From Georgenia sp. M64 (GTDB lineage Bacteria > Actinomycetota > Actinomycetes > Actinomycetales > Actinomycetaceae): a DNA stretch of 64,000 nt. Below the pieces are notes generated by a model that saw only the letters and a list, made by a program, of their open reading frames with translations, made no database searches and was not told the origin of the DNA. The DNA lies in NCBI RefSeq assembly GCF_038049925.1, contig NZ_CP145809.1:1674001-1738000 (forward strand), in the 5' to 3' direction. Position numbers and translations under genes: made by a program. Shown here piece after piece: positions 37,017 through 58,368 of the stretch (position 1 is the stretch's first letter; the number at the start of each line of letters is the position of its first letter).

Positions 37017-37825
37017 TGACCACCACGACCACACGCACGAGCGTGCCGGCCCTGGGAGTGCCGTCCGCGCCGCCGCTACCCGGCGACCTCGAGGCCCTGC
37101 TCCGCCGGCTGCGCCTGCCCCACATCCGCCACCAGGCACCCGAGGTCATCGCCACCGCCAAGGCCCAACGCTGGGAACCCGTCGAGGTTCTACGGGCCCT
37201 GTTCGCCGAGGAGGCCGCCGGCCGGGACCGGGCCTCCCTGGCCACCCGCCGGACCGCGGCCGGGTTCCCCACCGGCAAGACGTTCGACGCCTGGGACGAG
37301 GCCGCGTCCTCGATCCCGGTCCCGACCCAGCACGCGCTACGGACCCTGGAGTGGGTCCACCGCAAGGAGAACCTCGTCGTCTGCGGGCCGTCGGGGACCG
37401 GGAAGACGTTCCTGCTCGAGGCCCTGGGGCACCAAGCCGTCGAGCAAGGCCTGCGGGTCTCGTGGTTCACCCTCGAAGACCTCGGCGCCCTCCTGCGCAG
37501 GCACCGCGCCGACGACACCGTCACCAAGGCCATCGCGAAGGTGCTGCGCGCCGACCTCGTGGTCGTCGACGACATCGGCCTCCTCCCGGTCGCCACCGAC
37601 GCCGCCGAGGGCCTCTACCGCCTCGTCGACGCCGCCTACGAGAAACGAGCCGTCGCGATCAGCTCCAACCTCCACCCCGCCGGGTTCGACGAGCTCATGC
37701 CCAAGACCATCGCCACCGCGACCGTCGACCGGCTCCTCCACCACGCCCACGTCTGCCAGACCAGCGGCGAGTCCGTCCGCCTGTCCCAGGCCCTCTCCGG
37801 TCGAGGAGTGACGCCCTTGGCCTGA
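37016..37825 (+). CDS. istB: IS21-family helper ATPase IstB (element 2)
   Basis: A 269-residue AAA+ helper. Walker A GPSGTGKTFL, Walker B LVVVDDIGLL, then AVAISSNLHPAGFDELM and DRLLHHAHV. Starts in the istA stop codon. Intact. Confidence 0.95.
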   Translation: MTTTTTRTSVPALGVPSAPPLPGDLEALLRRLRLPHIRHQAPEVIATAKAQRWEPVEVLRALFAEEAAGRDRASLATRRTAAGFPTGKTFDAWDEAASSIPVPTQHALRTLEWVHRKENLVVCGPSGTGKTFLLEALGHQAVEQGLRVSWFTLEDLGALLRRHRADDTVTKAIAKVLRADLVVVDDIGLLPVATDAAEGLYRLVDAAYEKRAVAISSNLHPAGFDELMPKTIATATVDRLLHHAHVCQTSGESVRLSQALSGRGVTPLA

Positions 37826-41545: not shown

Positions 41546-41824
41546 TCAGGCGGCGGTGTACGCCAGCGGGTCGGCGTCGAAGGTCTCGGCGCAGTGCCCG
41601 CAGCAGAAGTAGTAGCGCTCGCCCTCGAAGTCGCGCACGAGCCCGCTCGCCTCGGCCCGCGAGCGCACGGTCGGGTTGCCCATCACCGCGCAGGTGACCA
41701 CGTCGTCGCCGGGGCCAGCGACGACGTCGCCGTGGTGGCCGTGGTCGTGGCCCCCGTCGGAGCAACAGCCGCCCCCACCGTTACCCCCGTGCTTGTGGTC
41801 GTGGTCCTCGTGCTTGTGATCCAT
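41546..41824 (-). CDS. YHS-domain protein with His-rich N-terminus
   Basis: A 92-residue protein. Residues 1-33 are His/Gly/Cys-rich (MDHKHEDHDHKHGG, GCCSDGGHDHGHHGD), a likely metal-binding arm. The rest is a YHS domain: VTCAVMGNPTVRSRAEASG then YYFCCGHCAETFDADPLAY. YHS domains bind metals through cysteines and occur in copper ATPases. ATG 41824 follows GAAGGAGGAGCG. Heads the operon with F510_1955-like and ABC1-kinase genes. A CsoR-type palindrome and a direct-repeat box lie within 110 bp upstream. Confidence 0.85.
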   Translation of the reverse strand: MDHKHEDHDHKHGGNGGGGCCSDGGHDHGHHGDVVAGPGDDVVTCAVMGNPTVRSRAEASGLVRDFEGERYYFCCGHCAETFDADPLAYTAA

Positions 41825-41865
41825 CACGCTCCTCCTTCGGTCGTCGTGCCATCTCGTGTCGAGGC

Positions 41866-41880
41866 TACCCCCGCGGGGTA
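41866..41880. promoter_or_regulatory. CsoR-type operator upstream of the YHS operon
   Basis: TACCCC-CGC-GGGGTA: perfect 6-bp arms around 3 bp, 42 bp upstream of the YHS start. Closest relative in the window is the 5634 site. Confidence 0.6.
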
Positions 41881-41912
41881 TGGCGTCAGGCGCGCGGAAG
41901 CCCGAACGGGCC

Positions 41913-41932
41913 ATGTCTTCAGCGAACCTTCA
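41913..41932 (-). promoter_or_regulatory. Direct-repeat box resembling a CopR site
   Basis: On the minus strand TGAAGGTTC-GC-TGAAGACAT: two tandem half-sites two bases apart, each 7 of 9 to TGAAGATTT. It lies ~90 bp upstream of the YHS gene in its orientation. Together with the neighbouring palindrome it would give dual control by CsoR and a response regulator (inference). Confidence 0.5.
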
Positions 41933-42074: not shown

Positions 42075-43490
42075 TCAGGCGGCGACCAGGGTCAGCCACG
42101 CGCCGGCGCCGACCCCGAGCACAACGGAAGTCACGGCTGCCGTGTGAGCGGTGAGCAGCGGAAGACTTCGCCGCGCCCGGGTGGTGCTGGATGGGCTGCT
42201 GCGCCTCACGGCCGGGCCGAACCACCGCAGGTAGTAGAACAGGCTGGCGACAGTGTTGACCGCTGCCAGCACCACCAACCATCCCAGCGCCCCGTCGGCC
42301 GCGGCCGAGAACACGGCCAGCTTCGCCACGAAAACCGCGGTGGGCGGTGTTCCTACCAGGCCGAGGAGGACGACGACAAGGCTGAGCACCAGACCGGGCT
42401 GGCCCCGAGAGGCGTCCGCCCACTGCGTCAGGGTCCGAGCCTGCGGTAGCGCCGCCCCCGCGGCAAAGGCGCCGATGTTGGTCACGGCGTATCCGGCGAG
42501 GTAGATGGCGAGGGCCGGGAAGGCGAGGTCGGTGCGGGCCGCGACCGCCACCACCATGAAGAGGTATCCCACCTGGCTGACCGTGGAGTACCCGAGCAGC
42601 CGCAACACCTCTTGCTGCTGGAACGCCGCGAGGTTGCCCAGCGTCATGCTGCCCGCCGCGATCACCGCGACCACCAGCGGGACGTCGAGCGCGATCCCGG
42701 AGAGGGGGTCGCGGACCAACCGGAATGCCGCCACCGCTGCACCGATCTTCGGGATGGTGGTGAGAAAGGCAGCGATGGCCGGGGTGGTTCCCGCGGTGAC
42801 GTCGGGCACCCAGAAGTGCACCGGTACCACGCCCGCCTTGAAGCCCACGCCGGCCAGCAGCCCGACCACGCCCACCGCGACCAGCGGGACCGGGGCTTCG
42901 GGCAGTCCGGCTCCCAGGCTCGCATAGTCGGTGACGCCTGCGGCAAGGACCAGGGCGGCCACACCGAGGAGCATGAGGACTCCCGCGAAGGCCCCCATGA
43001 GGTAGTACTTCAGCGTCGCCTCCACCCCGCGGTCGTCCTTGCGGAAGCCCGCCAGGGCATAGAGGGGCACGCTGGCCAGCAAGTACCCGGCGACGAGCAT
43101 GAGCAGATCCGACGCGGCCGCCAAGACCATCGCCCCGGTCGCGCCGAGGAGCATCAGGACGTAGGCCTCGGTCTGGCGCGGGTGTCCCCGCAGCGAGGAG
43201 GAAGCGAGGACGATGACGGCAGCGGTGGCCAACGTGATGGTCAACCGCGCCGCTCCCGCCGCGTCGTCGACGGTCCACGTACCGCCGTACACCACCCGCC
43301 CCGAGCCCAGCGCCGAGGCTGACGCGACCGCGCTGCCCAGTGCCGCCAGGACGGCCACCGCCCCGGCGCGGACCTGCAACGCCTGAGGCGTCCACAGGCC
43401 CAGAAGCAGGGTGGCGACGGCACCGAGCACCAGGACGAGCTCGGGAAGCAGGTCCACCGGGCTGCCCGACATCCCCTCCATCCCGGTCAC
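42075..43490 (-). CDS. nuoN: NuoN-like complex I membrane subunit
   Basis: A 471-residue antiporter-like subunit with about 14 helices. The pump landmarks include the Lys/His helix HFWVPDVTAGTTPAIAAFLT with IPKIGAAVAAFRL and the loop AFQQQEVLRLLGYSTVSQVG. GTG 43490 overlaps the nuoM stop (GTGA). Last gene of the leftward nuo operon; ~140 bp without a gene follow before the YHS regulatory region. Confidence 0.88.
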   Translation of the reverse strand: MTGMEGMSGSPVDLLPELVLVLGAVATLLLGLWTPQALQVRAGAVAVLAALGSAVASASALGSGRVVYGGTWTVDDAAGAARLTITLATAAVIVLASSSLRGHPRQTEAYVLMLLGATGAMVLAAASDLLMLVAGYLLASVPLYALAGFRKDDRGVEATLKYYLMGAFAGVLMLLGVAALVLAAGVTDYASLGAGLPEAPVPLVAVGVVGLLAGVGFKAGVVPVHFWVPDVTAGTTPAIAAFLTTIPKIGAAVAAFRLVRDPLSGIALDVPLVVAVIAAGSMTLGNLAAFQQQEVLRLLGYSTVSQVGYLFMVVAVAARTDLAFPALAIYLAGYAVTNIGAFAAGAALPQARTLTQWADASRGQPGLVLSLVVVLLGLVGTPPTAVFVAKLAVFSAAADGALGWLVVLAAVNTVASLFYYLRWFGPAVRRSSPSSTTRARRSLPLLTAHTAAVTSVVLGVGAGAWLTLVAA

Positions 43491-45523
43491 CGGGAGACGA
43501 GCGACACGAGGGCCGCAGCGGCCGGCTCGACGACGTCCAGCAGGAAGCGGGGCAGCAGGCCGACGATGACGGAGAGCGCGAGCAGGGGCAGGATCGCGGC
43601 ACCCTCCCGGCCGGAGAGGTCTGCGAATTGCGCCGCACGGAGCGGCCCGTCCGGCCCGTCCGGTGCGACAGGCGGAGCCTGGTCCACCGGGTCGGTCACG
43701 GGCGCAGCGTCGCCTGCCGTGAGGTCCTGGTGCTGGTCCTGATCCTGATCCTGATCGTGCCGAGGCGGGTCGTCCGCGGCCTCTTCGGGGGCGGTGTGAG
43801 TGTTGTGGTGGTCGGTGTGACCACCGTGAGGTGAATGGCCGGTGGGGTGATCCATCGCGCCGCCGGTGCTGTCACCCCTGGCGTGTCCGTCGTGGCCTCC
43901 GTGGTCAGCGGTGTGTCCGTCGTGTCCGTCGTGGTCGGCGGGCCCCCCGCCGTGGGTCTGGTGTGCACTGTCGTGGCCGCTGGTGCTGCTGTCGTCACGG
44001 CGACTGTTCAAGCGGGGACCGTCGGGGTGGTGGTGGCCACCGGCCATGTGACCCGCGTGCCCACCAGCGGTGATGACGGCCGGGACCACGGTGTCGTCCA
44101 CACCGAACTCGTCCGCGCCGAACTCGTCCCCGTCGTCATCTCGGGCCTCGTCGCGCTCCGTCGCGCTCAGCAGGGTGCGGCCCGTGAGCAGTCGCTGCAC
44201 CGCAAGCAGGAAGAGCCCGGCGGTAACAAGGATCCCGGTCACGGCGATGACCCCCGCCACCGGGGCCGCCTGCAGCGTGCCGGTGAAGATCTGGAACTCG
44301 GCGATGAAAGAAGAGAACCCGGGCAGGCCCAGCGAGCCAAAGGCGGCCACGGCGAAAGCGGCGGCGAACAGCGGCGCCGGGCGCGCGAGGCCGCCCCACC
44401 GGCTGAAGTCATAGGTCCGGCCGCGCGTCCAGAGGACCCCGGCGAGCAGGAAGAGCGCCCCCGTGAGCAGCCCGTGGCTCACCATCTGCACCAGCGCTCC
44501 GACGGTCGCGATGGTGCGCGCCTGCTCGTCGGCCGCCACGAGGCCGGCCGCCCCCAGCCCGAGAATCACGTAGCCCATGTGGTTCACCGAGGTGTAGGCG
44601 ATCATCCGCTTGGCGTCGCGCTGTGCCAGGGCCACGAAAGCCCCCCACAGCACGCTGATCACCCCGATCACCACGGCGACCATGGCCCAGCGCTGCCAAG
44701 CCCCCGGGAGCATCGGCATGGCGATCCGGACGAAGCCGTACGTGCCCAGCTTCAGGAGGACACCGGCGAGGATGGCCGAGCCGGCTGCCGGGGCGTCGGT
44801 GTGCGCGTCGGGCAACCAGGTGTGGAACGGGAAGAGCGGCGTCTTCACCGCCAGGCCGAGACCGATCGCCAGCAGTACCAACCCTCCGAGCAGCGGGGAG
44901 TCCTCCAGCGGTGGGTTCGCGGCGAGCCGGACCATGTCGAAGGTGCGCTCCTCCCCGCCGAGGAACAACCCGATGAAGCCGACGAGCAGCGCGAGCGAGC
45001 CGACGAAGGTGTACAGGAAGAACTTCAGTGCGCTGCGCCGGTTGTTGCCGTGGCCCCATCCCGCGATGACGAAGTACATCCCCACGATCGACAGGTCGAA
45101 GAAGACGAAGAAGAGGATGAGGTCCAGCGCCGCGAAGGTGCCCAGGCTGGCGGTCTGGAGGAAGAGGAACAGTGCGGCGTAGCGGCGTGGGCGCCGGTCC
45201 TCACGCAGCGACCAGACCGCGGTCGCCAGGAACAGGACCGCGGTCAGAGCGATGAGGGGGAGGGACAGCCCGTCCACGCCCACGTGGTAGGACGCGTCGA
45301 CGGTCGGGATCCACTGCACGCTCGTCTCGTAGGCGATCCCGTCCACGATGCCGCGGGCGCCGGTCCCGGGGTCGAAGTTCACCCACATCCACACCACGAG
45401 GGCGAGGTCGACGGCGGCCGCCCCGACCCAGACGCGCAACGCGGCGCGGTCCGAGACCGGCAGCACCAGCAGGGCGCCGGCCACCACGACCGGGAGCAGG
45501 ACGACAACGGTCAGCATGGTCAC
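43487..45523 (-). CDS. nuoM: NuoM-like subunit with large His/Asp-rich insert
   Basis: A 678-residue antiporter-like subunit, unusually long. The core is typical (LFPFHTWLPDAHTDAPAAGS, AILAGVLLKLGTYGFVRIAM). After the helix ending VQRLLTGRTLLSAT, and before the last helix (LLALSVIVGLLPRFLLDVV), there is an insert of ~170 residues. It is rich in His, Asp and Gly (GGHAGHMAGGHHHPDG, DHDGHDGHTADHGGHDGH, HDQDQDQDQHQD). NuoM normally has ~500 residues with only a short loop there. The insert can plausibly bind metal; its side of the membrane is not settled. GTG 45523 overlaps nuoL's stop; an ATG at 45517 is an alternative. Confidence 0.9.
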   Translation of the reverse strand: MTMLTVVVLLPVVVAGALLVLPVSDRAALRVWVGAAAVDLALVVWMWVNFDPGTGARGIVDGIAYETSVQWIPTVDASYHVGVDGLSLPLIALTAVLFLATAVWSLREDRRPRRYAALFLFLQTASLGTFAALDLILFFVFFDLSIVGMYFVIAGWGHGNNRRSALKFFLYTFVGSLALLVGFIGLFLGGEERTFDMVRLAANPPLEDSPLLGGLVLLAIGLGLAVKTPLFPFHTWLPDAHTDAPAAGSAILAGVLLKLGTYGFVRIAMPMLPGAWQRWAMVAVVIGVISVLWGAFVALAQRDAKRMIAYTSVNHMGYVILGLGAAGLVAADEQARTIATVGALVQMVSHGLLTGALFLLAGVLWTRGRTYDFSRWGGLARPAPLFAAAFAVAAFGSLGLPGFSSFIAEFQIFTGTLQAAPVAGVIAVTGILVTAGLFLLAVQRLLTGRTLLSATERDEARDDDGDEFGADEFGVDDTVVPAVITAGGHAGHMAGGHHHPDGPRLNSRRDDSSTSGHDSAHQTHGGGPADHDGHDGHTADHGGHDGHARGDSTGGAMDHPTGHSPHGGHTDHHNTHTAPEEAADDPPRHDQDQDQDQHQDLTAGDAAPVTDPVDQAPPVAPDGPDGPLRAAQFADLSGREGAAILPLLALSVIVGLLPRFLLDVVEPAAAALVSLVSR

Positions 45524-47451
45524 CTCACCAGGAGCACAACAAGAAGGACACCCAGACCGAGCAGTGCCTGGGCGTAGTACTGGTGCAGCAGGCCGGTCTG
45601 CGGTCGGCGCATGAATCCGCCGAGGCGTCGAACTGCCGCACCGAAGGCCATCACGGCGGCGTCGACGACGCGGCCGTCGACGGCGGCCATGACATGGCCT
45701 CCCCGTCGCGTGCCGGCGGCGAGCGCTCCCACGGCACCATCGACGATGGTGTCATCGGCACGGCGCAGGAGCGCAGCAACGCGCAGCGCAAGGGCACCGG
45801 CCGCGTGCACGCCGCGGTCGATGACCTGCTCGTCCACGGTCGCGGCGCCGCGCGCGACCGCCAGCCACGGCCGGGGGCTCAGCAACGACCCCAACCCCGC
45901 CCACCCGGCGAGTCCGCCGTGCCGCAACGGCGCGAGTACGTGAGGCCGGGACACGACCAGGCCGAGCGTCACCACGGCGATCCCACCGCTCACGGCGAGC
46001 TCACCCAGGCTCGGCGGGTGCGCCGCATCCCCGACCGCGAGGGCAAGCCGCTCGGCGACCGCTGGTACGCCGAGCAGGGCGAGCGCCGGCGTCGCCAGGG
46101 CGAACATCCACGCCACGGCGGTGACCGAGACCGGGACCCGACCGGTCCCGCGCGGTTCACGAGCCGGTTCGCCGTCGCCCGCCCCGGGCGGGGCGGCCAG
46201 GACCACGGCGAGTACACGCCCGGCGTACACGGCGGAGAGCGCCGCAGCAACCAGGGCCGTCAGGCGCAGCGGGCCCTCCGCCCCGGCCATCGCCCAGTCC
46301 TTGGTGACCCACAGGGACAACGGAGGGACCCCGGCCAGCGCGAGCGCTGTCACGGTCACTGCCGCGCCCACGCCGCGATGACGGCGGGCCGCTCCCCGCA
46401 GCTCGGAGAGCTTCTTGGTGCCCAGGGAGGTCAGCCACACCCCGGCGATGACGAACAGCCCCGCCTTGACCGCGGCGTGGGCGAGGAGCTGGGCCGTGCC
46501 ACCCGCCACGGAGCCGACCCCGGCCGCGAGCACGACGAACCCGATCTGCGCCGCGGTGCTCGCGGCGAGGAGCTGCTTGAGGTCGGTCTGGGCCGCAGCC
46601 ACGAGGCCCAGCACGACGGCAGTCAGGGCCCCGATCCAGGCCGCCGCAGGGCCGGCCCATCCCTCGAGCAGCGGCTCCAGGCGCAGCAGCAGGTACCCGC
46701 CGGCTGCGACCATGGTCGCCGAGTGAAGGAGGGCGCTGACGGCACTGGGACCCTCCATCGCGGCAGAGAGCCACGCCGAGAACGGCAGCTGGGCGGACTT
46801 CCCCAGCGCCGCGAGGAGGACACCGGCGGCGGCCACGTCCCGCCACCCCCCGGACGCCGTCGCCAGACTCGTCAGCTCCAGGGAGCCCGTCCCGGCGAGC
46901 GCCGCCCCGGCCGCGACATACAGGCCCAGATCACCTGCCCGGGTGGCGAGGAAGGCGGTGGTGCCGGCGGCCACCTTGCCGGCCTGGTACCAGTGGAACC
47001 CGATGAGCGCGTAGCTGGTCGCACCCATGACCTCCCAGGCCAGCAGCAGCGTCGGCAGCGTCGTCGCGGTGACCGTGGCGAGCATCGCGGCGGTGAAGAG
47101 CAGGAGGTAGCCGAAAAAGCGTGCCCGGGCCGCCGCGCGCGCCGTGTCGGCGACGGCGAAGATCATCACCGCCGCGGCGACGACGGCCACCCCCACCACC
47201 AGCACCGCGGAGAGGCCGTCGACGGCCAGTGCGAGCTCACCGCCGTCGACCAGACCCAGGAACGGTGCCGTGGCCCTGGGCCGGAGCGTCGCGACGACGG
47301 CGGCCAGGGCGCCGGTGAGCGCGGCGGCGACGACGGCCACCGGGCCGGCCGCCCGGTCCGCCCGGCGGCCGGCCAGGAGCAGGGCCAGCCCGGCAAGGGC
47401 GGGCATCAGCACCAGCGCGGCCAGGGCGGCGGGCGCGGCCTGGGCGGTCAC
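45520..47451 (-). CDS. nuoL: NuoL-like complex I membrane subunit
   Basis: A 643-residue antiporter-like subunit with the helices and residues of proton channels: Glu in LAWEVMGATSYALIGFHWY, and the Lys/His helices SAWLSAAMEGPSAVSALLHS with ATMVAAGGYLLLRL. The C-terminal part includes a lateral-helix region and a final helix (QALLGLGVLLVVLLVR). GTG 47451 overlaps the nuoK stop. Confidence 0.9.
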   Translation of the reverse strand: MTAQAAPAALAALVLMPALAGLALLLAGRRADRAAGPVAVVAAALTGALAAVVATLRPRATAPFLGLVDGGELALAVDGLSAVLVVGVAVVAAAVMIFAVADTARAAARARFFGYLLLFTAAMLATVTATTLPTLLLAWEVMGATSYALIGFHWYQAGKVAAGTTAFLATRAGDLGLYVAAGAALAGTGSLELTSLATASGGWRDVAAAGVLLAALGKSAQLPFSAWLSAAMEGPSAVSALLHSATMVAAGGYLLLRLEPLLEGWAGPAAAWIGALTAVVLGLVAAAQTDLKQLLAASTAAQIGFVVLAAGVGSVAGGTAQLLAHAAVKAGLFVIAGVWLTSLGTKKLSELRGAARRHRGVGAAVTVTALALAGVPPLSLWVTKDWAMAGAEGPLRLTALVAAALSAVYAGRVLAVVLAAPPGAGDGEPAREPRGTGRVPVSVTAVAWMFALATPALALLGVPAVAERLALAVGDAAHPPSLGELAVSGGIAVVTLGLVVSRPHVLAPLRHGGLAGWAGLGSLLSPRPWLAVARGAATVDEQVIDRGVHAAGALALRVAALLRRADDTIVDGAVGALAAGTRRGGHVMAAVDGRVVDAAVMAFGAAVRRLGGFMRRPQTGLLHQYYAQALLGLGVLLVVLLVR

Positions 47452-47765
47452 CCGCGCAGCTCCGTCGCCATGTCCACCATGTCGACCTGCCTGGCCCGGT
47501 AGATCGCGATGGTCGCGGCGAAGCCCATGACCATCTCCACCGCCATGACCACCAGGGCCAGGACGACGAGCATCTGCCCGTCCGGTGCGTCCGGACTCAG
47601 GAAGTACCAGGCGGAGGCGCCGGCGAGGAGGATGCCGTTGACCAGGAGCTCCAGGCCCATCATCACCATGACGATGGACTGCTGGGACAGGGCCCCGAAG
47701 ATCCCCACCCCCACCAGGGCCGCAGCCACGGTGAGAAGCAGCTGGAGCAGCAGCGTCTCGCTCAT
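47448..47765 (-). CDS. nuoK: NuoK-like complex I membrane subunit
   Basis: A 105-residue, three-helix subunit. Both membrane glutamates important for proton transfer are kept: MGLELLVNGILL and VVMAVEMVMGFAATIAIYRAR. Start overlaps the nuoJ stop by 4 nt. Confidence 0.92.
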   Translation of the reverse strand: MSETLLLQLLLTVAAALVGVGIFGALSQQSIVMVMMGLELLVNGILLAGASAWYFLSPDAPDGQMLVVLALVVMAVEMVMGFAATIAIYRARQVDMVDMATELRG

Positions 47766-48337
47766 CGCGCCAACCCCCCGGGCACCGGGTCCTGCGGCTG
47801 TCGACGGCTCAGATCAGGGCCGAACCGGTCGTAGCGGCCCCGTCCGGTGGCCAGCACGGTCCCCGCGAGAATGGTGGCGAACAGGCTCACGCCCACCACG
47901 ATCATGACGAGCATGTACTCGCCCATCACTGCCTGGCCGATCTGCACGGTGGCGTCCGCCGGGGTGGTACCGCGGCGGGTCGGCCAGTCGGCCAGCCACA
48001 CCCCGGCGGTCAGGGCGGCGAACACCGCTGCCCCGGCGACCGCCGAGCCCCTCGCGTTGTGCACCATGGTCATGGGCATCAGCCCCGCCGGGTTCATCAT
48101 GAACATGATCATGAACACCGCCATGACCGCCATCTCCATGGTCATCATCAGCGCGGTGACAAGCGCCAGGTAGTGCAGGTCGAGAACGAGCATGATGCCG
48201 GCGACGGCGAGGAAGGAGCCCAGGAGGGCGAAGGTGGCCCGGGCCATGGAGTCCACCACGAAGACGAAGACGCCCAGGACGACGGCGACCACCCCCAGCG
48301 TCAGCGCTGCGACGGGAAGGATCTCACTCATCGACAT
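47762..48337 (-). CDS. nuoJ: NuoJ-like complex I membrane subunit
   Basis: A 191-residue five-helix subunit (FALLGSFLAVAGIMLVLDLH, then YLALVTALMMTMEMAVMAVF). It is methionine-rich in TM3 and the following loop (FMIMFMMNPAGLMPMTMVHN). ATG 48337 lies 14 nt inside the small ORF that replaces nuoI. Confidence 0.88.
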   Translation of the reverse strand: MSMSEILPVAALTLGVVAVVLGVFVFVVDSMARATFALLGSFLAVAGIMLVLDLHYLALVTALMMTMEMAVMAVFMIMFMMNPAGLMPMTMVHNARGSAVAGAAVFAALTAGVWLADWPTRRGTTPADATVQIGQAVMGEYMLVMIVVGVSLFATILAGTVLATGRGRYDRFGPDLSRRQPQDPVPGGLAR

Positions 48338-48449
48338 CGGTACTGACCTCCACGCTCGACTGTGTGTCCCTGCCTGCGGCGGCCGGACCCGACCTCCCCG
48401 TCGGCGGGTGCTCCTCCGCTTCGCGCATGCTCCTCGGTCCGGCCCTCAT
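48324..48449 (-). CDS. 41-residue ORF in the position of nuoI
   Basis: Starts in the nuoH stop (ATGA overlap) and ends 14 nt inside nuoJ. It therefore fits the operon's coupled arrangement exactly. The peptide starts MRAGPRSMREAEEHPPTG and ends SSVEVSTDVDE. It is hydrophilic with no cysteine, so it is not a NuoI ferredoxin, and I recognise no family. It may be a real microprotein or only a translational bridge left after loss of nuoI. Confidence 0.4.
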   Translation of the reverse strand: MRAGPRSMREAEEHPPTGRSGPAAAGRDTQSSVEVSTDVDE

Positions 48450-49390
48450 GGGTAGAACCCGTTCACCGCAAGGACGGCCACCACCAGGGCCTGGAGCAGC
48501 GTCAGCGGCACAAGAACCATCCAGGCCACCTCGACGAACCGGTCCGGCCGGATCAACGGCAGCCGCCGACCTGTGACGACGACGAGCACGACCACCGCCG
48601 CCGTCTTGAGCAGGAACCACACCGGGCCGGGCAGGACCGGGCCGGTGTGCCCCCCGAGGAACAGCGTCGTCGCCATGGCGGCAGTAGCGCCGAGGAAGAC
48701 CGCCCGGCCGGTCTCGACGAGCAGGCGGTCCGGTCCGGAGAGCTCGGCGAGCACACCGCCTGCGATGTCAGCCCCGGCCGGTGCAGCGAACGGACCCCAG
48801 AACGCGAACGCGGCACCGCTGGCGAGGAAGACCGCGAACGCCAGCGGCATGGAGACGATGAACCACAGATCGGCCTGCGCGGCCACGATGTCGGTCGTGC
48901 GCAGAGAGCGGGCCGCGACGGCGGTGGTGATGAGCGTGAACATCAGGGGCAGCTCGTACGCCAGCCCCTGGGCAAGGAACCGGTACCCCCCGACGAGCGG
49001 GTGAACCGCGTTGGGGGCCCATCCCACGAGCCACACGGCCGCCCACAGCAGCGCCTCGGCGGCGTTGAACCAGACGATGTCCGCGCTGGTGGAGACCAGG
49101 CTCCGCCCGGTCAGGGGGATCACCGCCACCGAGAGCAGGGCGAGCACCAGCACGGCACCGGCACCGATGCGGCCGAGCAGTCGGTCGGGCGCGAGAGTGG
49201 TGCGTCGCTGCTCGATGAGGGCACGGAGGGCCGACCGCACGGGATCCACCGCCCCGCCGAGCCGCCCACCGTTGAGGACCACACGGTCGACGGCCGCGAC
49301 CAGCAGGCCCAGCGCCAGGCCGACCGCAACGACCAGGACGACGGCGAGAAGCATGCCGACGGAGTCGGACAGGGTGAGGGACTCAGGCAT
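48446..49390 (-). CDS. nuoH: NuoH-like subunit with altered quinone-site loop
   Basis: A 314-residue subunit with about eight helices, matching NuoH in size and order (YRFLAQGLAYELPLMFTLIT, VWFLLKTAAVVVLVVVTGRR with LPLIRPDRFVEVAW). The usual acidic signature E-T-N-R-x-P-F-D-x-P-E-A-E is replaced by FLASGAAFAFWGPFAAPAGA. The expected quinone-channel glutamates and aspartates of that loop are thus largely missing. ATG 49390 overlaps the end of the upstream gene. Confidence 0.85.
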   Translation of the reverse strand: MPESLTLSDSVGMLLAVVLVVAVGLALGLLVAAVDRVVLNGGRLGGAVDPVRSALRALIEQRRTTLAPDRLLGRIGAGAVLVLALLSVAVIPLTGRSLVSTSADIVWFNAAEALLWAAVWLVGWAPNAVHPLVGGYRFLAQGLAYELPLMFTLITTAVAARSLRTTDIVAAQADLWFIVSMPLAFAVFLASGAAFAFWGPFAAPAGADIAGGVLAELSGPDRLLVETGRAVFLGATAAMATTLFLGGHTGPVLPGPVWFLLKTAAVVVLVVVTGRRLPLIRPDRFVEVAWMVLVPLTLLQALVVAVLAVNGFYP

Positions 49391-50558
49391 GGCCCTGCCC
49401 GCCGCCCGCCGGAACAGGAGCGTGTCGCAGCTCCACACTGGCTACCGCCAGCCGGGCAGCGGCGAGTTCCATCCCCTCGAGGGCAGGTGCGAGCTCTTCC
49501 AGGGTGACGGCGTGGGCGGGTGCCCCGTGCTCAGCCGTGTCGCACCACCGGCGCACCCGTCCCAGCACGTCCCCGCCGCCGAGCGTGGGGGCGATGCCGC
49601 GGACCGACCAGGCCAGCGTCCGGGAGCGGCTCACCTTTCGGGTGAGGCGGTTCACCAGCTTCAGGGCCTCCGCCTGATCGGGCGACGAGCGCCGAGCGTC
49701 TCGAGCCTCGCGTGCCTCCCGCGCCGCGGCGGGCCAGCCCGCCACGATGAGGAAGCGGCTCAGCGCGTCAAGCGCGCGGACGGCCGGTTCGGTCCCCGCG
49801 TCCAGGGGTGGAGCGGCGTCGGCCCAGCTCAGGTTGACGTCAGTGAGCACATCCCCCTGCATGGAGCTTCGAAGCACGAGGCCGGTGGGCCAGCCGGGCA
49901 GCACCGGTCCGAGCCGGACGGTCAGGGCGTCGAGCGTAAGTCCGTCACGATCTGCCGAGGTCTTTGCCATCGGCAGACCCGCTACGTCGCCGCCGTGACC
50001 GCCGTGGCCGCCGTCGCCGCCGTGACCGCCGTGGCCGCCGTCGCCGCCGTGACCGCCGTGACCGCCGTGACCGCCGTGACCGCCGTGGTCTGCGTGGCCG
50101 CCGTGGTCTGCGTGGTCTGCGCCGTGGTCGGCGCCGTGGTCTTCGCCGTGGCCGCCGTGGTCTGCGCCGTGGTCGGCGTGGGCTCCGGTTGAACGCCTCA
50201 CCGCGAGCAGGACCACGGGGTCGTGGTTGGACTCGTCCCGGGCCCACGCGCCTGCGCTCATCAGGGCTTCGGCGGCGGTGTCGAGCTGGCTGGCAACCGG
50301 CCCAGCGGTGAGCGATGTCCGGTGACAGGGCGTCGGTACCTGGGACCACAGCACGTCTGCGGCCGCGGAGAGCTCGTCGCCGAGCCGGCCCACGGTGAGG
50401 AGAATGTCCGTGCGGGCCGGCGACTTCGCCAGGACCCATCCCCGCCGGTCGAGCTCCGCCTCGAGATCCCACCGGAGCTCGTTTGTCCCCGGCCCGTCCA
50501 CGACCAGGACCCTGGGCCGTGCCAGAGCCCAGGGTGCGAGCCGCGCGATCAGGTCCAC
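49383..50558 (-). CDS. His/Gly-rich protein between nuoA and nuoH, possible cofactor-less NuoB-NuoD relative
   Basis: A 391-residue protein. Residues ~1-100 (RPRVLVVDGPGTNELRWDLE, TDILLTVGRLGDELSAAADV, LWSQVP) recall the NuoB / hydrogenase-small-subunit fold, but the four cluster cysteines are missing. Residues ~125-192 are a low-complexity HGGHGGDGGH-type tract. The C-terminal half (LTVRLGPVLPGWPTGLVLRS, then RTLAWSVRGIAP and DVLGRVRRWC) faintly recalls NuoD. Position between nuoA and nuoH is where nuoB-nuoC-nuoD normally lie. GTG 50558 overlaps nuoA by 10 nt. The NuoB/D link is inference from position and weak resemblance. Confidence 0.55.
   Translation of the reverse strand: MDLIARLAPWALARPRVLVVDGPGTNELRWDLEAELDRRGWVLAKSPARTDILLTVGRLGDELSAAADVLWSQVPTPCHRTSLTAGPVASQLDTAAEALMSAGAWARDESNHDPVVLLAVRRSTGAHADHGADHGGHGEDHGADHGADHADHGGHADHGGHGGHGGHGGHGGDGGHGGHGGDGGHGGHGGDVAGLPMAKTSADRDGLTLDALTVRLGPVLPGWPTGLVLRSSMQGDVLTDVNLSWADAAPPLDAGTEPAVRALDALSRFLIVAGWPAAAREAREARDARRSSPDQAEALKLVNRLTRKVSRSRTLAWSVRGIAPTLGGGDVLGRVRRWCDTAEHGAPAHAVTLEELAPALEGMELAAARLAVASVELRHAPVPAGGGQGHA
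49987..50190 (-). repeat. 9-bp-based low-complexity tract encoding His-Gly/Asp repeats
   Basis: Long run of CCGCCGTGA/CCGCCGTGG/CCGCCGTCG units on the plus strand, coding HGG and DGG triplets on the minus strand, then less regular HADHGAD units. Prone to slippage, always in steps of 9 bp within the regular part, so the frame is kept. Confidence 0.85.
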
Positions 50559-50932
50559 CGCAGTGCCCCCTCTCGCCACACGTACAGCACGCCGACGAGC
50601 AGCAGCAGAAGGAAGACGAACATCTCCACCACGGCGGCGGCGCCGAGCTGGGCGACCACGACCGCCCAGGGGTACATGAAGATCATCTCCATGTCGAAGG
50701 CGAGGAAGAGCACCGTCACGGTGTACCAGCGCACGTGGTAGCGCGAGACTGCGTGTTGCTCGGGAAGGCCACCCGACTCGAACGGCAAAGACTGCGCGGG
50801 CTGCCGCGTCCGGGTGGCAGCACGAGCCAGCCCGAAGATGCCGCCGACCAGGGCGAGCGTCGCAAGGAGCATCGACGCCGCCGCTGCCATCGGACCTCCT
50901 GCGGGCAAATCGTCGGGACTGGGCGGGACCAA
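50549..50932 (-). CDS. nuoA: NuoA-like complex I membrane subunit
   Basis: A 127-residue three-helix subunit. The conserved loop and second helix are clear: ESGGLPEQHAVSRYHVRWYT and LFLAFDMEMIFMYPWAVVV, with the Asp/Glu pair of the membrane helix kept. The usual Y-E-C-G loop motif reads FESG, so the loop cysteine is absent. First gene of the leftward nuo operon. ATG 50932 follows CCGATGGCAG-like sequence without a strong ribosome site; a later in-frame ATG is possible. Confidence 0.85.
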   Translation of the reverse strand: MVPPSPDDLPAGGPMAAAASMLLATLALVGGIFGLARAATRTRQPAQSLPFESGGLPEQHAVSRYHVRWYTVTVLFLAFDMEMIFMYPWAVVVAQLGAAAVVEMFVFLLLLLVGVLYVWREGALRWT

Positions 50933-51047: not shown

Positions 51048-51929
51048 TCAGCCGCGACCTCGCGCTGACTCCGCGTGGTCGGCGGTGTAGACGCTCAAGA
51101 CGTCCGTCGTCTCGCGTCCGGTGTGGAGGAACTGAGCGTCCAGCACGTGCGCCAAGCCCACCAGGGTGTGCTCGAGGACGTCCGCCGCTAGGCGGACGTC
51201 CTCTCGGGAGGAGCGCTGGCCTGCCGCGGCCAGCTCGGCGGCGTACCCGATGGTTCGTGCCAAGGAGCCTTCCGGCGTGACCTCGCGGAAGTAGTAGGTC
51301 TCCGTGTACTGCGTCAGGTCCATCCGTACCTCGGTCAGCCCGGCGGCGAGGTTCTCCAGGAGCCGAGCGGCGGTGCACTCACTCAGCTGGTCGAGTCGCT
51401 CAGCCGTGTGTGCCTTCGCCAGGGCAGCGAGCCTGAGGGAGAGCACTCGTCTGCGGGTCAGTGCCGGGTAGATCTGGAGCGTCCAGGTGACCGCACCGGT
51501 CAGGAGCGTGAAGCCGATGAGGGCCTGCAGGGGGATGAGGAGTCGAAGCCACGGGGCGGTGGGCACGATGTCCCCGAAGCCCAGCGTGGCCACGGTGACC
51601 AGGGAGAGGTAGAGGGCGTCGACAAGCATGTTGCGGCTCGGCGGGTCCAGGCCGGCGCCGTAGCTGAACGACTCGGGGAGGTGAGGGAGGTAGACGAGGG
51701 CTGCGCCGACGACGACGAGCAGTCCCCACGTACCGATCACCATCAGTACACCCGCCGGTCCGGCGAGCCTTCTGGCTGATCGGCCCAGCCGCTTGGACAG
51801 CCGCCACGCCAGGGCCAGCAGCCGGCTGCTGAGGGCGCCGTGCCCGCTGGGATGGGCAAGTGTGTGGAAGAGGTCCCACAGTGCGGTCGCCACCAGGGTG
51901 CCGCCGAGGATCTGGGTCAGGACGTTCAA
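51048..51929 (-). CDS. Two-helix potassium-channel-like protein
   Basis: A 293-residue protein. An N-terminal membrane region and further helices (GVLMVIGTWGLLVVVGAALV) precede a pore with selectivity filter TVATLGFGDIVP and the second pore helix LIPLQALIGFTLLTGAVTW. A ~150-residue cytosolic helical domain follows (LAKAHTAERLDQLSECTAAR...). The filter TLGFGD differs from TVGYGD by Val-to-Leu and Tyr-to-Phe, both tolerated in ion channels. ATG 51929 overlaps the histidine-kinase stop, so channel and kinase are cotranslated. Confidence 0.82.
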   Translation of the reverse strand: MNVLTQILGGTLVATALWDLFHTLAHPSGHGALSSRLLALAWRLSKRLGRSARRLAGPAGVLMVIGTWGLLVVVGAALVYLPHLPESFSYGAGLDPPSRNMLVDALYLSLVTVATLGFGDIVPTAPWLRLLIPLQALIGFTLLTGAVTWTLQIYPALTRRRVLSLRLAALAKAHTAERLDQLSECTAARLLENLAAGLTEVRMDLTQYTETYYFREVTPEGSLARTIGYAAELAAAGQRSSREDVRLAADVLEHTLVGLAHVLDAQFLHTGRETTDVLSVYTADHAESARGRG

Positions 51930-53146
51930 TGGGTGGTCCTTCCGGGATCGGGGTGGTGTGGCGGCCCTCCGCGTCCGCTCGGCGGGTCCTCCGGCCGGGT
52001 CCGCGCCGACCGGGGCCGTGGCGGAGGGCTCGGTCTGTCGAGGTCGGTCGGTAGCTTCACGGAGAATGTCGTGCCTTGGCCCGGGCCTGCGCTCTCCGCT
52101 GCGACGTGCCCGCCGTGGGCCTGCGTCAGTGCGCGGACGATGGCCAGGCCGATGCCGCTGCCGCCCTTCTGGCGAGAGCGACCTGGGTCCACGCGGTAGA
52201 AGCGCTCGAACACCCGTCGCAGGTGCTCCGGTGCCAGGCCCTCACCGGTGTCGGTCACTGCGAGCTCGACGACGCCGGGCCCGGGCCGTGCGCTGACCGT
52301 GACGACGCCCTCGGGCGGGGTGTGCCGCAGGGCGTTGTCCAGGAGGTTGGCCAGCACCTCCTGTATCCGGTCCTCATCAATGCTGATCGGAGGCAGGTCG
52401 TCGGCGACGGCGAGCTGGAGGTCCACACCGGCCCGCGCGAACCGTGCCCGCGCCGCGTTGACGGCGGCGGCCACCACGTCGCGCGGTGCCACCGCCCGCA
52501 GATGGAGGTCCAGGCGGCGTTCCTCCGCGCGGGACACGGTGCTCAGGTCGTCCACGAGCCGCTCGACGCGCGCGAGCTCGGCGTGCATGGTGTCGACGGC
52601 GTCCCCGTCGAGGGGCAGCACCCCGTCAGCCAGGGCATCGATGTAGCCTCGCAGCGCGGTCAGCGGCGACCGCAGCTCGTGCGCGACGTCGCGAAGCATC
52701 TCCGCCCGCGTCCGCTCGGTGGCTGCCAGCTCGTGCGCCGTCAGGTCGAGCGCACTGGCCAAGGAGGCCAGCTCGGGGCCCGACCTCGTCATGTGCACCC
52801 GTGCCGTGTAGTCGCCCGCCGCGATCCGCCCGGCCGCTGTCGCCATGGCCTCGACGGGCCGGACGACACGCCGGGTCACGAACCAGCTGACGGCCAGCGC
52901 GGTGATCAGCGAGGCAAGGATCGCCACGGACAGGGAGGTGAAGGTGGCCCCGCTGAATGCCGCGTCGATGTGCTGCCGGGTCGTGTCGTCGATCGGCTCG
53001 GGAACCCTTCGGAGGTGCTCCTCGAAGAGGCCTGGTGCGAGGATGAGCGCGACGACGGCGAGGGTCGATGCTCCGGCCACGATGACGAGGGCCTGGGCGA
53101 GGAAGAGTCTCGCCCCCAACCGGGGCCCCTCGGGGGAGCGTTTCAC
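51926..53146 (-). CDS. HAMP-containing sensor histidine kinase
   Basis: A 406-residue sensor with two membrane helices (ALVIVAGASTLAVVALILAP and SVAILASLITALAVSWFVTR). They enclose a ~40-residue extracytoplasmic loop (LFEEHLRRVPEPIDDTTRQH). HAMP region VVRPVEAMATAAGRIAAGDY; dimerisation box with the phosphorylated His in LRDVAHELRSPLTALRGYID; ATP-binding N box LLDNALRHTPP; G boxes DTGEGL and GGSGIGLAI. The loop has no obvious Met/His cluster, so the signal cannot be read from sequence. GTG 53146 overlaps the regulator stop. Confidence 0.93.
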   Translation of the reverse strand: MKRSPEGPRLGARLFLAQALVIVAGASTLAVVALILAPGLFEEHLRRVPEPIDDTTRQHIDAAFSGATFTSLSVAILASLITALAVSWFVTRRVVRPVEAMATAAGRIAAGDYTARVHMTRSGPELASLASALDLTAHELAATERTRAEMLRDVAHELRSPLTALRGYIDALADGVLPLDGDAVDTMHAELARVERLVDDLSTVSRAEERRLDLHLRAVAPRDVVAAAVNAARARFARAGVDLQLAVADDLPPISIDEDRIQEVLANLLDNALRHTPPEGVVTVSARPGPGVVELAVTDTGEGLAPEHLRRVFERFYRVDPGRSRQKGGSGIGLAIVRALTQAHGGHVAAESAGPGQGTTFSVKLPTDLDRPSPPPRPRSARTRPEDPPSGRGGPPHHPDPGRTTH

Positions 53147-53880
53147 AAGTCCCCGCCGAGGCCGTAGCCGAACCCGCGGAGGGTGCGGATGTAGCGCGGG
53201 GACTGCGCGTCGTCGCCGAGCTTGCGACGGAGGTTCGCCACGTGCACGTCCACCACGTGACGGTCACCGAACCACTGGCCGCCCCATACCTGCTCGAAGA
53301 GCTGGTCGCGGCTCAGAACCCGTCGGGGATGCTCGGAGAGGGCGTCCAGCAGGTCGAACTCCGTGCGCGTGAGCTCCACACGATGCGCACCGCGACGCAC
53401 CTCCCGGGCCCCGACGTCGATGGTGAGGTCACCGAGCTGCCGGACCGACTGGCCCTGTCCCGCGCCGGACCGGGGCCGGCGGAGCATGGCCTTGACCCGT
53501 GCCACCAGCTCTGGGGCGGAGAACGGCTTTCCGACGTAGTCGTCCGCACCGCTCGACAGTCCCACCAGCCGGTCGATCTCCTCGGTGCGGGCGGTGAGCA
53601 TGATGACGTAGGCGTCGGAGAAGGTCCGGAGCCGGCGGCACACCTCCAGCCCGTCGATGCCCGGCAGCATGAGGTCCAGCACGACGACGTCCGGCGAGCT
53701 CTCCCGTGCAGCGGTCACACCGGTCTCGCCGTCGGCCATGACCACGACCTCGAAGCCCTCGCGCTCGAGGTAGCCACGGACGACCCGGGCGATCGCAGCC
53801 TCGTCCTCGATGACGAGGACCCGCGGACGTGAGACCTCGCCACGGTCCGCGGGCTGTCCCGCGCGGCCACCAACGGTCAC
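53143..53880 (-). CDS. OmpR-family response regulator
   Basis: A 245-residue regulator. Receiver domain residues ~15-130: acidic pocket VIEDE, phospho-acceptor Asp in VVVLDLMLPGIDG, Lys in YVGKPFSAPEL. Winged-helix DNA-binding domain ~150-240 with ELTRTEFDLLDALSEHPRRV and VDVHVANLRRKLG, ending YIRTLRGFGYGLG. GTG 53880 overlaps the upstream gene (GTGA). Operon context and the direct-repeat boxes near copper genes suggest a copper or redox response (inference). Confidence 0.93.
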   Translation of the reverse strand: MTVGGRAGQPADRGEVSRPRVLVIEDEAAIARVVRGYLEREGFEVVVMADGETGVTAARESSPDVVVLDLMLPGIDGLEVCRRLRTFSDAYVIMLTARTEEIDRLVGLSSGADDYVGKPFSAPELVARVKAMLRRPRSGAGQGQSVRQLGDLTIDVGAREVRRGAHRVELTRTEFDLLDALSEHPRRVLSRDQLFEQVWGGQWFGDRHVVDVHVANLRRKLGDDAQSPRYIRTLRGFGYGLGGDL

Positions 53881-54593
53881 CCGTCCTCCGACATCGCGAC
53901 GAACGCACCGTGCCAGCTGTGGTGCCACACCTCACCTGTCACGGCGTTGACGGAGAGCATGCCCTCGATCTCGCCCTCGCGGACGGTGTGCAGGGTGTAG
54001 TACCCGGGGAACTCTTCCGGCGCCCCCACGGTGAGGCCTTCCTCGTCGACCTCGCGCTCGGCCACGGCCAAGGCCTCGTCCGCCGAGAGCTTAGGTGCGG
54101 TGTCGGCGCCGCGCACCATCCCGTAGCGGGTGTTCCACATCATGGCCGGCCCGTACTCCGGTCGTACCACTCCTGTCCGGGAGTCGACCAAGATCTCGGT
54201 GACGCCCGCGCCGTCGGCGTCCAGAAGGTCGGCGTAGTAGTGGTTCTCGAACTCCATGATCTCGCCGACCTGCAGCTCGCCGTCGAGGTCGCCGGCGTAC
54301 AGCTCTGCCCGATCACGAGCCTCAGCGAGATCGTCGACGGGCGTGCCGTTCCCACTCGACCCACCTCCCGTCATCATGCCGTTGACGCCGTAGCCCATCA
54401 TGCCGGTGCTGCCGTAGCCCATCATGCCGGTGCTGCCGTAGCCCATCATGCCGGTGCTGCCGTAGCCGTCGCTGGCTCGCGAGGTGGTGGAGGCCCATGC
54501 GGGGCTCTCCTGGGTCAACAGCCAGGTGCCGGAGCCGAGCGCTCCGGCCAGGGCGACCGTCGGCACCAGGAAGCGTGTGATGCCGATCCTCAT
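53877..54593 (-). CDS. Exported Met-rich repeat protein, PepSY-like
   Basis: A 238-residue protein with signal peptide (LVPTVALAGALGSGTWLL). Three tandem GYGSTGMM repeats then GYGVNGMMTGGG follow (residues ~43-75, 24-bp DNA units). The remainder carries PepSY-like strands and helices (YYADLLDADGAGVTEILVDS and LSADEALAVAEREVDEEGL). Methionine pairs bind Cu(I) in periplasmic proteins, so a copper-handling role is plausible; its cotranscription with the two-component system suggests an accessory sensor or buffer. Stop overlaps the regulator start; start overlaps the SHOCT gene stop. Confidence 0.7.
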   Translation of the reverse strand: MRIGITRFLVPTVALAGALGSGTWLLTQESPAWASTTSRASDGYGSTGMMGYGSTGMMGYGSTGMMGYGVNGMMTGGGSSGNGTPVDDLAEARDRAELYAGDLDGELQVGEIMEFENHYYADLLDADGAGVTEILVDSRTGVVRPEYGPAMMWNTRYGMVRGADTAPKLSADEALAVAEREVDEEGLTVGAPEEFPGYYTLHTVREGEIEGMLSVNAVTGEVWHHSWHGAFVAMSEDG

Positions 54594-54847
54594 GGCAGCT
54601 TCCTTCCGAGCTGGCCTGCGGCGAGCGTGTCCTGCATCGACCGATAGGTCTCGACGTCCAGCTCACCGGCGGCGAAGCGCCGGTCCAGAATCTCCTGGGG
54701 GGTCTCCGGTCGCGCTCCGGGCTCATCCTTCGCCGCGCTCGGGAACACGCGCATGACCGCCCAGACGATCAAGGCGATCAGCGCCACCCAGAACACCACC
54801 ATGGCGATCCAGCCGCCGACACCCATGCCCCATCCCCAACCCATCAT
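54590..54847 (-). CDS. Small SHOCT-domain membrane protein
   Basis: An 85-residue protein with a Gly/Trp/Met start (MMGWGWGMGVGGW), one helix (IAMVVFWVALIALIVWAVM) and a C-terminal SHOCT motif (ETPQEILDRRFAAGELDVET, then YRSM). Common next to copper and Csp genes in actinobacteria; function unknown. ATG 54847 follows AGAGGACAGGACG. Leads the operon SHOCT / Met-rich / regulator / kinase / channel. Confidence 0.82.
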   Translation of the reverse strand: MMGWGWGMGVGGWIAMVVFWVALIALIVWAVMRVFPSAAKDEPGARPETPQEILDRRFAAGELDVETYRSMQDTLAAGQLGRKLP

Positions 54848-55006: not shown

Positions 55007-55615
55007 CTACGCGGTCTCGACCGGCCGACCGCCGCGCACGTCGTACCACTGGGCGAGCCAGGTCTGCATCTGCTCAATCTCACCGAGCTGGGCCGCGTAG
55101 ATGTCCTCGCACAGGCCGAGCAGCTCGGGGTGCTCAGCGTTGTGGAGGCACGTCTCGGCCTCCCGGATCGCACCCCAGTGGTGGCGGATCATCGAGCGCA
55201 TGAATGCGATCTCGAACTCCGCGCCGTCGAGCTCCATGAGGCGGTGCATGGACTGCATGCCGGTCATGTCCGGTTCGTGGGTTGCGCCGTACCAGTCCTG
55301 AAGCCAGCCCTGCATCTGCTCGATCTGCGCGGACTGTGAGGCGATGATCGACTCACAGGTGCTGACGAGCTCAGGGTGGACGGCCTTGTCCACGCACATC
55401 TCGGCCATCATCACCGCCATGGCGTGATGGTCGATCATGTCCTTGAGGAAGTCCTCCTCGAACCTGGCGGCCTGCGCGTCGGCGGCCGGGGCCTCGGCGA
55501 ACGCCGGCACTGCGGTGACAGCGATGCCGGCACCCGTGAAGGCGCTCACACCGAGCGCTCCGGCGGCGAGGAAGGCCGCGGGGCGGCGGGTGCGACGGTG
55601 GTGACTGACGTTCAT
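55007..55615 (-). CDS. DUF305-family exported protein
   Basis: A 202-residue secreted protein. Signal peptide (AAFLAAGALGVSAFTGAGIA) then two ferritin-like DUF305 helical repeats: FLKDMIDHHAMAVMMAEMCV and IAFMRSMIRHHWGAIREAET, each with HH and Met/Glu residues suited to copper. DUF305 proteins are frequent in copper islands. ATG 55615 follows GAAGGAGCGAGTC. Stands alone between SHOCT and csp genes, same strand. Confidence 0.88.
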   Translation of the reverse strand: MNVSHHRRTRRPAAFLAAGALGVSAFTGAGIAVTAVPAFAEAPAADAQAARFEEDFLKDMIDHHAMAVMMAEMCVDKAVHPELVSTCESIIASQSAQIEQMQGWLQDWYGATHEPDMTGMQSMHRLMELDGAEFEIAFMRSMIRHHWGAIREAETCLHNAEHPELLGLCEDIYAAQLGEIEQMQTWLAQWYDVRGGRPVETA

Positions 55616-55688
55616 GACTCGCTCCTTCGTTGACTCCTGCTGTTCGGTCGGGATGTGTGTGCTCCAGTGGTGACAGAAGCGACCGGGG

Positions 55689-56090
55689 TCAGCCGATCGC
55701 GGCGAGGAGCTCGGTGCACGCCTGCTCGCAGCGGCGGTAGCTCTCGGCGCAGACCTTGCAGTGCTCGTGCATCTCCGCGTGCGCGGAGCACTCGTCCCCG
55801 CAGGAGCGGCACGCCCGGACACAAGCCTCCAGCTGGGCGCGGGTGATGTTGGCGTCGTAGCCGGTGTGCCGGGAGAGCACACGTGCGCTGGTGCCGCAGA
55901 TGTCCGCGCAGTCGAGGTTGGTGCGGACGCACTGACGGAGCTCGGCGACCATGTCCTCGCTCAGGCACGCGTCGCCGCAGGCGGTACACGCCTGGCTGCA
56001 CTCGACAAGGGCGTCGACGGTGCGGGCGAGGAGGTCACGGTCGAGGTTGATCTCGGCCGGGTAGGTCTTCATCATCGCTGCTGTCTGCAC
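55689..56090 (-). CDS. Four-helix-bundle Cys-rich copper-storage protein (Csp3-like)
   Basis: A 133-residue protein with 15 cysteines spaced to line the inside of a four-helix bundle: ECSQACTACGDACLS, RQCVRTNLDCADICG, EACVRACRSCGDECSAH and EHCKVCAESYRRCEQAC. Csp proteins store many Cu(I) ions; with no signal peptide this fits the cytosolic Csp3 type. Start: a GTG at 56090 lies 5 nt from GGAGG, whereas the ATGs at 56075 and 56072 are too far from it. The upstream region is one arm of the long IS1634 direct repeat, so its promoter was duplicated, not lost. Confidence 0.85.
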   Translation of the reverse strand: MQTAAMMKTYPAEINLDRDLLARTVDALVECSQACTACGDACLSEDMVAELRQCVRTNLDCADICGTSARVLSRHTGYDANITRAQLEACVRACRSCGDECSAHAEMHEHCKVCAESYRRCEQACTELLAAIG

Positions 56091-58144: not shown

Positions 58145-58368
58145 CCTGACCAGGTCGACGCTAGACACGGGCCCGCTGGGCCGCACCCCGGGATACCGGT
58201 GGGCACCATCAAGATTTGATGAACATGGTGAACACTCCACGACTCGTAGCAGACGTCGGCGGCAGGAGCGGTCGCTCACCAGGTCAGGTGCCCCGTGTGC
58301 CCTCGGTCGCACCGTTCGACCGCGCGCCCCCCGTCCGCGGTTCGGCAGGCATCCTGTGCCGATGGAGC
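58145..58368. repeat. 224-bp direct repeat, right copy (IS1634 target duplication)
   Basis: Matches 56136-56359. This copy carries the true 3' end (last 28 codons and stop) of the ABC-YHS ATPase gene. Confidence 0.93.

Follow-up and report, generated by a model that had tools for sequence, protein, structure and literature searches.

What does a set of complex I genes do when little more than its membrane arm is left? The question is raised by an operon of Georgenia sp. M64, which lies in a stretch of 64,000 nucleotides of contig NZ_CP145809.1 (positions 1,674,001 to 1,738,000, hereafter the window) and runs along its minus strand from position 50932 to 42075 in the order nuoA-X-nuoH-J-K-L-M-N, X being a gene of 391 codons. 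On the evidence of the encoded proteins and their relatives, the operon keeps the antiporter chain (K, N, M and L) and the A/H/J junction of complex I, with the peripheral arm reduced to X. Since electron-handling parts have been lost and metal features gained, the product may move or respond to copper rather than burn NADH. A link of the operon to copper is very likely and a metal is probably involved in its function. That the product transports Cu(I) is rated a little short of an even chance, and the reading that we prefer, a redox-free, proton-coupled Cu(I) exporter forming a copper-adapted branch of complex I and the Mrp antiporters, is given a probability of roughly 0.4, both transport and its direction being inferred.

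The eight genes, which overlap or nearly do so, are nuoA (50549-50932; Pfam PF00507, E 1.6e-28), X (49383-50558), nuoH (48446 to about 49390, start predicted; PF00146, E 1.2e-40), the methionine (Met)-rich nuoJ (47762-48337; PF00499, E 4.7e-12), nuoK (47448-47765; PF00420, E 2.7e-13) and the genes of three antiporter subunits, nuoL (45520-47451; PF00361, E 6.3e-45), nuoM (43487-45523; PF00361, E 3.3e-64) and nuoN (42075-43490; PF00361, E 5.8e-43). All of the window proteins of the operon except X were named by Pfam; their matches to NCBIfam models were mostly below the curated cut-offs, the NuoM subfamily model being above. No nuoE, nuoF, nuoG or nuoI was present in the operon, and no gene there was named nuoB, nuoC or nuoD by Pfam. 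An earlier note on this DNA, made from the sequence alone, had described seven overlapping nuo genes, the absence of E, F, G and I, and no recognisable B, C or D; open reading frame (ORF) coordinates and Pfam agree with the first two points, and the third did not survive, for B and D, alignment of the X family, which identified a candidate NuoB-NuoD fusion.

The identity of X emerged from its family. The window protein alone matched no Pfam or NCBIfam model, and among 56 single X proteins only three matched NuoD and two NuoB (E ≤ 1). A profile built from these 56 proteins and searched against PDB chains matched NuoB/NDUFS7 chains over X residues 38-86 (best E 1.5e-6); weaker entries were XPA and CueO, the latter over a histidine (His)-rich linker, and are taken as reflecting composition. 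An AlphaFold model of X (predicted local distance difference test score (pLDDT) 82.3, predicted template modelling score (pTM) 0.79; residues 132-188 below 50) was compared by Foldseek, and the first 23 matches were NuoB-type chains of complex I, NDH-1 and membrane hydrogenase entries, followed by one unrelated chain and then by NuoD/49-kDa-type chains; the E-values were weak (best 0.012), with a probability column of 0.93-1.00 for the first 23. Several of these 23 chains are those named NuoB-type by the profile search, and the rest we presume to be so. Ten distant X proteins were scanned: eight exceeded the cut-off for NuoD (PF00346), five that for the heavy metal binding domain (HMBD; PF19335) and five gave a sub-threshold NuoB match; in five the NuoD and heavy-metal-binding domains lie within one protein, and one member, L199, matched none of the three.

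Aligned with NuoB and NuoD of its own genome (the L090 row, nearly empty in the NuoD part, was not used), X retains the strand-helix core of NuoB and the start and end of NuoD. The cysteine (Cys)-bearing stretches of NuoB, which hold the N2 ligand positions, are deleted in the aligned X proteins, in agreement with the earlier note, which had remarked that the candidate lacks cluster Cys, and the NuoD motifs HPxTHG and YLHxG are absent from them. Because profile match, fold comparison, domains of distant relatives and alignment agree, X is best described as a predicted shrunken NuoB-NuoD fusion in which the parts carrying cluster and quinone ligands are deleted and a metal-binding linker stands in between; an unrelated protein in this position is ruled out by the same four lines. 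The NuoB-NuoD identity is new, X being hypothetical in published accounts. Long X proteins with NuoB-like, HMBD and NuoD domains (L187:7402-9147, L188:4953-6530, L189:7583-9277, L191:9189-10844 and L192:9186-11039) probably represent stages by which the peripheral arm decayed.

X was found in seven of 59 genomes including its own, i.e. in six of 58 relatives, and the gene order was identical in all six relatives fetched, in one of which, L020, X is interrupted by a run of N. A genome scan with a NuoH profile gave 524 pattern matches, 505 of them counted as relatives. The best 80, together with the window and the six relatives, make 87 loci, some of which are two copies from one genome. The synteny that the earlier note had proposed to look for recurs in 77 of the 87 as a complete set (nuoA, the C-terminal part of X, and nuoH to nuoN), the other 10 lacking end genes where contig ends cut them. 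Queries with canonical NuoB, NuoD, NuoF, NuoG and NuoI, a set that leaves out NuoC and NuoE, gave a single match across the 87 loci, NuoG in L100. Of 396 genomes drawn from the phylum, 34, the own genome among them, matched the X profile at E ≤ 1e-6. At least two of these are doubtful: in G168 and G338 the match covers just a 42-residue NuoB-like stretch, and the locus of G168 (L204) holds canonical-type nuo genes. Relatives of NuoH also occurred on 18 plasmid records, including those of Roseivivax, Acuticoccus and Halomonas. In the NuoH phylogeny (75 rows), a split with support of 100/99 sets the 20 canonical sequences apart from the 55 of the family, which include three from proteobacteria; the program gave a long-branch warning.

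The membrane subunits combine retained channel residues with changes at the junction. E39 and E77 of NuoK, E140, K218, K329 and K384 of NuoL, K227, K258 and E409 of NuoM, and K218, K248 and K390 of NuoN are each kept in at least 92 % of rows, whilst the Glu position of transmembrane helix (TM) 5 is Asp in NuoM (97 %) and Leu in NuoN. The claim that the pump residues of all four subunits were kept thus holds for the most part and fails at these two places. Two losses that the earlier note had described at the junction were both seen in alignments: the loop Cys of NuoA is replaced (canonical YECG.. reads FESG.. in the operon copy), and the acidic quinone loop of NuoH is missing when compared with E. 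coli NuoH. One loop Glu and a 'YE' Glu of NuoH are kept in 87 of 87 rows, the latter being lost in proteobacterial rows. Where canonical NuoA carries its loop Cys, between TM1 and TM2, the family has a His pair, H60 and H66, conserved at 0.96-0.97 of 77 rows, a few of which are fragments.

One of the candidate metal features is found in NuoJ. Residues 64-93 (48059-48148, minus strand) contain M64, M65, E68, M69, M72, M76, M80, M81, N82, P83 and H93 without variation in 87 rows, i.e. seven Met, one Glu and one His in TM3 and the following loop; L63 is likewise invariant, and M87, M89 and M91 vary in one to five rows. Family NuoJ proteins carry four to seven MxxxM motifs, compared with 0-1 in 19 canonical NuoJ taken from this and other carrier genomes. 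Their Met-richest 40-residue stretch has 9-14 Met (3-7 canonical). Enrichment in Met is mild in NuoK (9.2 vs 6.0 % canonical) and NuoA (5.6 vs 3.6 %) and was not detected in NuoH or NuoL. The motif is shared by three proteobacterial plasmid copies, and most of it is retained by proteobacterial and deep actinobacterial members, the latter having DPGG instead of NPAG. The linker of X (about residues 126-193; 49980-50183, minus strand), which includes the low-confidence residues 132-188 of the model, is His-rich in the family at large, 62 of 70 X proteins having at least five His per 30 residues. A second His-rich segment, between the last two TM helices of NuoM (43649-44128, minus strand), was present in four of 87 NuoM proteins, all close relatives, and was rejected as a general feature; of the two segments to which the earlier note had drawn attention, one is therefore general and one local.

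Three plasmid copies carry His-rich sequence on NuoJ, with a long C-terminal tail in Roseivivax and Acuticoccus and a short one in Halomonas. In the alphaproteobacterial loci L177 (15810-16712) and L180 (12552-13262) the long His-rich segment is on the C-terminus of NuoJ and not in X. In the X of the Pseudonocardia autotrophica plasmid (L181:9776-11881) the linker contains an extended run of HGE repeats, and the plasmid record annotates this region as broken hypothetical genes.

The genes around the operon point to copper. Among 764 neighbouring ORFs the commonest clusters were those of DUF305, of a CsoR-type repressor and of an HMA-domain P-type ATPase. By tblastn, one or more of CsoR, CopA, HMA/CopZ, DUF305, multicopper oxidase and DUF326 was found in the flanks of 56 of the 87 loci and in none of 20 control regions (20 kb each, at arbitrary places in 10 carrier genomes), the queries having been drawn from the flanks themselves, which favours matches there. 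Such flanks occurred under 30 of 40 genus labels, the window and some relatives being counted apart. Restricted to CsoR, CopA, CopZ and multicopper oxidase, the count was 45 of 87 loci against none of the 20 controls, with at least two of these four families in 25 loci; CopA was present in 23 of the 87 flanks and DUF305 in 28. Motifs that we take to be copper markers were found in the neighbour clusters, C-x24-H-x3-C of the CsoR type in 19 of 22 and CPC in 15 of 20. Eighteen further distant loci had CopA in nine and CsoR in eight; L197, L198, L199, L202 and L204 matched none of the neighbourhood queries. Six of the 18 plasmids were opened and copper genes were present on five, those of Arthrobacter FB24, Roseivivax, Halomonas, Acuticoccus and Pseudonocardia autotrophica, so that the three proteobacterial plasmids are consistent with a copper context; on the Arthrobacter FB24 plasmid a multicopper oxidase gene adjoins the operon. 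A link to zinc ABC transport was dropped because ZnuC-type matches were as common in controls (five of 20) as at the loci (nine of 87).

Several observations weigh against a copper exporter. No copper-type match was present in 31 of the 87 flanks read, including all four Streptomyces loci, and the neighbourhood matches of the window itself are DUF305, DUF326 and YHS together with others not classed as copper-type, without CopA or CsoR. The Rhodococcus plasmid stretch held insertion sequence (IS) elements and no copper gene. A CsoR-like palindrome was rare upstream of nuoA (five of 79 stretches, compared with 0.1 in shuffles), and CueR patterns were found in none of the 79. The NuoJ model (pLDDT 73.8, pTM 0.55), used for helix limits only, gave no significant stripe of conserved residues along one helix face when all eight positions were tested (P 0.12); a P of 0.007 was obtained only for six positions hand-picked by the analyst. 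To these may be added the Leu in TM5 of NuoN and the published placing of the Kocuria flava nuo genes apart from the copD cluster (PMC6002675).

In the proposed mechanism, cytosolic Cu(I) would be gathered by X through its His/Met (or HMBD) linker, X docking at the NuoB/NuoD position, the site of the quinone module in complex I. Cu(I) would then enter at the A/H/J junction, pass to the Met residues of NuoJ and leave the cytoplasm, and inward proton flow through the antiporter subunits would pay for export, an H+/Cu+ antiport of Mrp-like logic. Stated in this fuller form, as a transition-metal branch whose giant exporter takes in copper at the former quinone/iron-sulphur (FeS) junction (X linker or HMBD, NuoA His pair, NuoJ Met), the reading is more tentative still, if only slightly. 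The earlier note had left open the driver or gate of a perhaps metal-dependent ion machine; the metal part probably stands, and gene context and the conserved Met and His features now make copper a candidate driver.

Should this reading hold, proton pumping by the complex I chain could be tied to a metal ion in place of electron flow, which would offer a direct route to study communication between junction and antiporters; bacterial copper handling would gain a large machine so far overlooked. X and its longer relatives would exemplify an FeS/quinone module decaying into a metal-binding subunit.

Comparison with known systems shows both shared and missing parts. The A, H, J, K, L, M and N proteins of the operon are homologous to those of respiratory complex I and mostly keep the antiporter residues, but E, F, G and I are lacking, B and D are reduced to X, and the N2 ligands, quinone motifs and NuoH acidic loop are gone. 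Mrp antiporters likewise lack a redox module and have NuoL/M/N-, K- and J-like parts; apart from TM5 of NuoM and NuoN, the Mrp-type channel Glu and Lys residues are present in L, M and N of the operon. The eight genes include no MrpE, MrpF or MrpG. In the NuoJ-like part of Mrp an essential Glu, E706, occupies the position of Y59 in complex I (PMC7419157); the TM3 Glu of the operon's NuoJ may be likened to it, although in a profile alignment to E. coli NuoJ E68 falls two residues after Y59. NuoA, NuoH and X are not known from Mrp. The Cu(I) transporters CopA, CusA and CTR1 likewise rely on Met-rich ligands in the membrane and on domains of the HMBD or His/Met type; they are unrelated proteins, and the operon encodes neither an ATPase nor an RND subunit.

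The same metal features and copper context would be expected of a copper-gated ion translocator, in which X and NuoJ sense Cu(I) and gate a flux of H+ (or Na+/K+), copper itself not being carried, so that pH or membrane potential is protected during copper stress. A gene for a two-TM ion channel in the flanks of 11 of the 87 loci fits this explanation, which we nevertheless hold unlikely, because invariant Met residues within a TM helix would seem more path-like than sensor-like.

Published accounts offer a different function. The order nuoA, hypothetical, nuoH, J, K, L, M, N has been printed (PMC6676996), with hypothetical genes, white in the figure, lacking UniProt or PDB homologues; the seven nuo genes are also reported in PMC6002675 and PMC4018334. 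This 'partial NDH-1 operon 2' or partial nuo-operon (PMC6676996, PMC3314556, PMC6002675), known from Salinispora, Streptomyces SM17 and SM18 and Kocuria flava S43, was read as a proton pump for marine or hyperosmotic adaptation; copD copper resistance genes were counted among the marine adaptation genes too, in another genomic region (PMC6002675). It agrees with the present operon in gene order, in its hypothetical second gene and in lacking B, D, F, G and I, and differs in that X is left without assignment and no copper link is made, in the passages available from these papers; no publication linking the operon with copper was found, judged by titles and abstract openings. That partial nuo clusters are known in actinobacteria, as the earlier note had stated, is thus correct to the point that the order itself is in print, and what probably shifts is the reading, from an unexplained or marine-adaptation pump to a copper-linked one. 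A Mrp-like Na+(K+)/H+ antiporter that helps the cell in saline or marine habitats, with copper genes as hitch-hikers on a mobile island, would accord with the published association, the retained antiporter residues and the plasmid and IS contexts. It leaves the HMBD fusion, the His-rich X and the NuoJ Met residues without explanation and does not account for copper genes around members of different phyla, and we regard it as improbable.

Cu(I) is a poor electron donor for menaquinone. A hidden redox enzyme, in which copper on X takes over from the FeS chain and hands on electrons, say from Cu(I) to quinone, to drive proton pumping, would make sense of a metal linker in the place of the redox module, but with the quinone motifs of NuoD and the acidic loop of NuoH gone it is very improbable.

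As the earlier note had stated, no electron input is evident for the operon. The own genome (4.18 Mb, one contig) does contain the canonical nuo operon for which that note had proposed a search, with NuoD, NuoB and NuoF, from about 727.8 kb, and this was read as far as NuoL. Two further NuoF-type (PF01512) matches lie at 3661596-3662117 and 3694929-3695438. Among 50 carrier genomes searched out of those of the 80 loci, mostly drafts, a NuoD (PF00346) match was found in 43, that of G082 being weaker (73 bits), and none in seven (four Arthrobacter, one Agrococcus and two Kocuria). No NuoF match was found in these seven, mostly draft genomes, and no match to the NuoB family (PF01058) in six of them; the seventh, G096, had one, covering profile positions 37-128 only and resembling a hydrogenase small subunit. 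It is right to say that a canonical nuo operon is not required as a partner in general, because seven of the 50 mostly draft carriers gave no match to NuoD or NuoF. A membrane arm that shares the hydrophilic part of the canonical enzyme, for which the canonical genes here and the NuoD matches in 43 carriers would speak, can be put aside as scarcely credible in general, given these seven carriers and an X already in the place of NuoB/NuoD.

The remaining genes near the operon are varied. Downstream is a His/Cys-rich YHS/TRASH-like protein (41546-41914, minus strand; PF04945, E 1.8e-6, 28.3 bits, just under the cut-off at 30.3). Upstream, also on the minus strand, lie the two-TM ion channel (51048-51929; PF07885, E 2.4e-11), a sensor kinase and response regulator pair (51926-53874; HATPase_c/HisKA/HAMP and Response_reg/Trans_reg_C) and the DUF305 protein (55007-55882; PF03713, E 8.3e-36). 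Between the response regulator and the DUF305 gene are a secreted-looking MMGYG-repeat protein and an 85-aa membrane protein without a Pfam match (53877-54847, minus strand). An ABC ATPase with a C-terminal YHS domain adjoins a MacB/FtsX permease (58284-60394, minus strand), possibly forming a metal-linked exporter. On the plus strand, less than 8 kb from the downstream end of the operon, two IstB-type (IS21) transposition ATPase genes (34311-35093 and 37016-37825) are in line with a mobile island.

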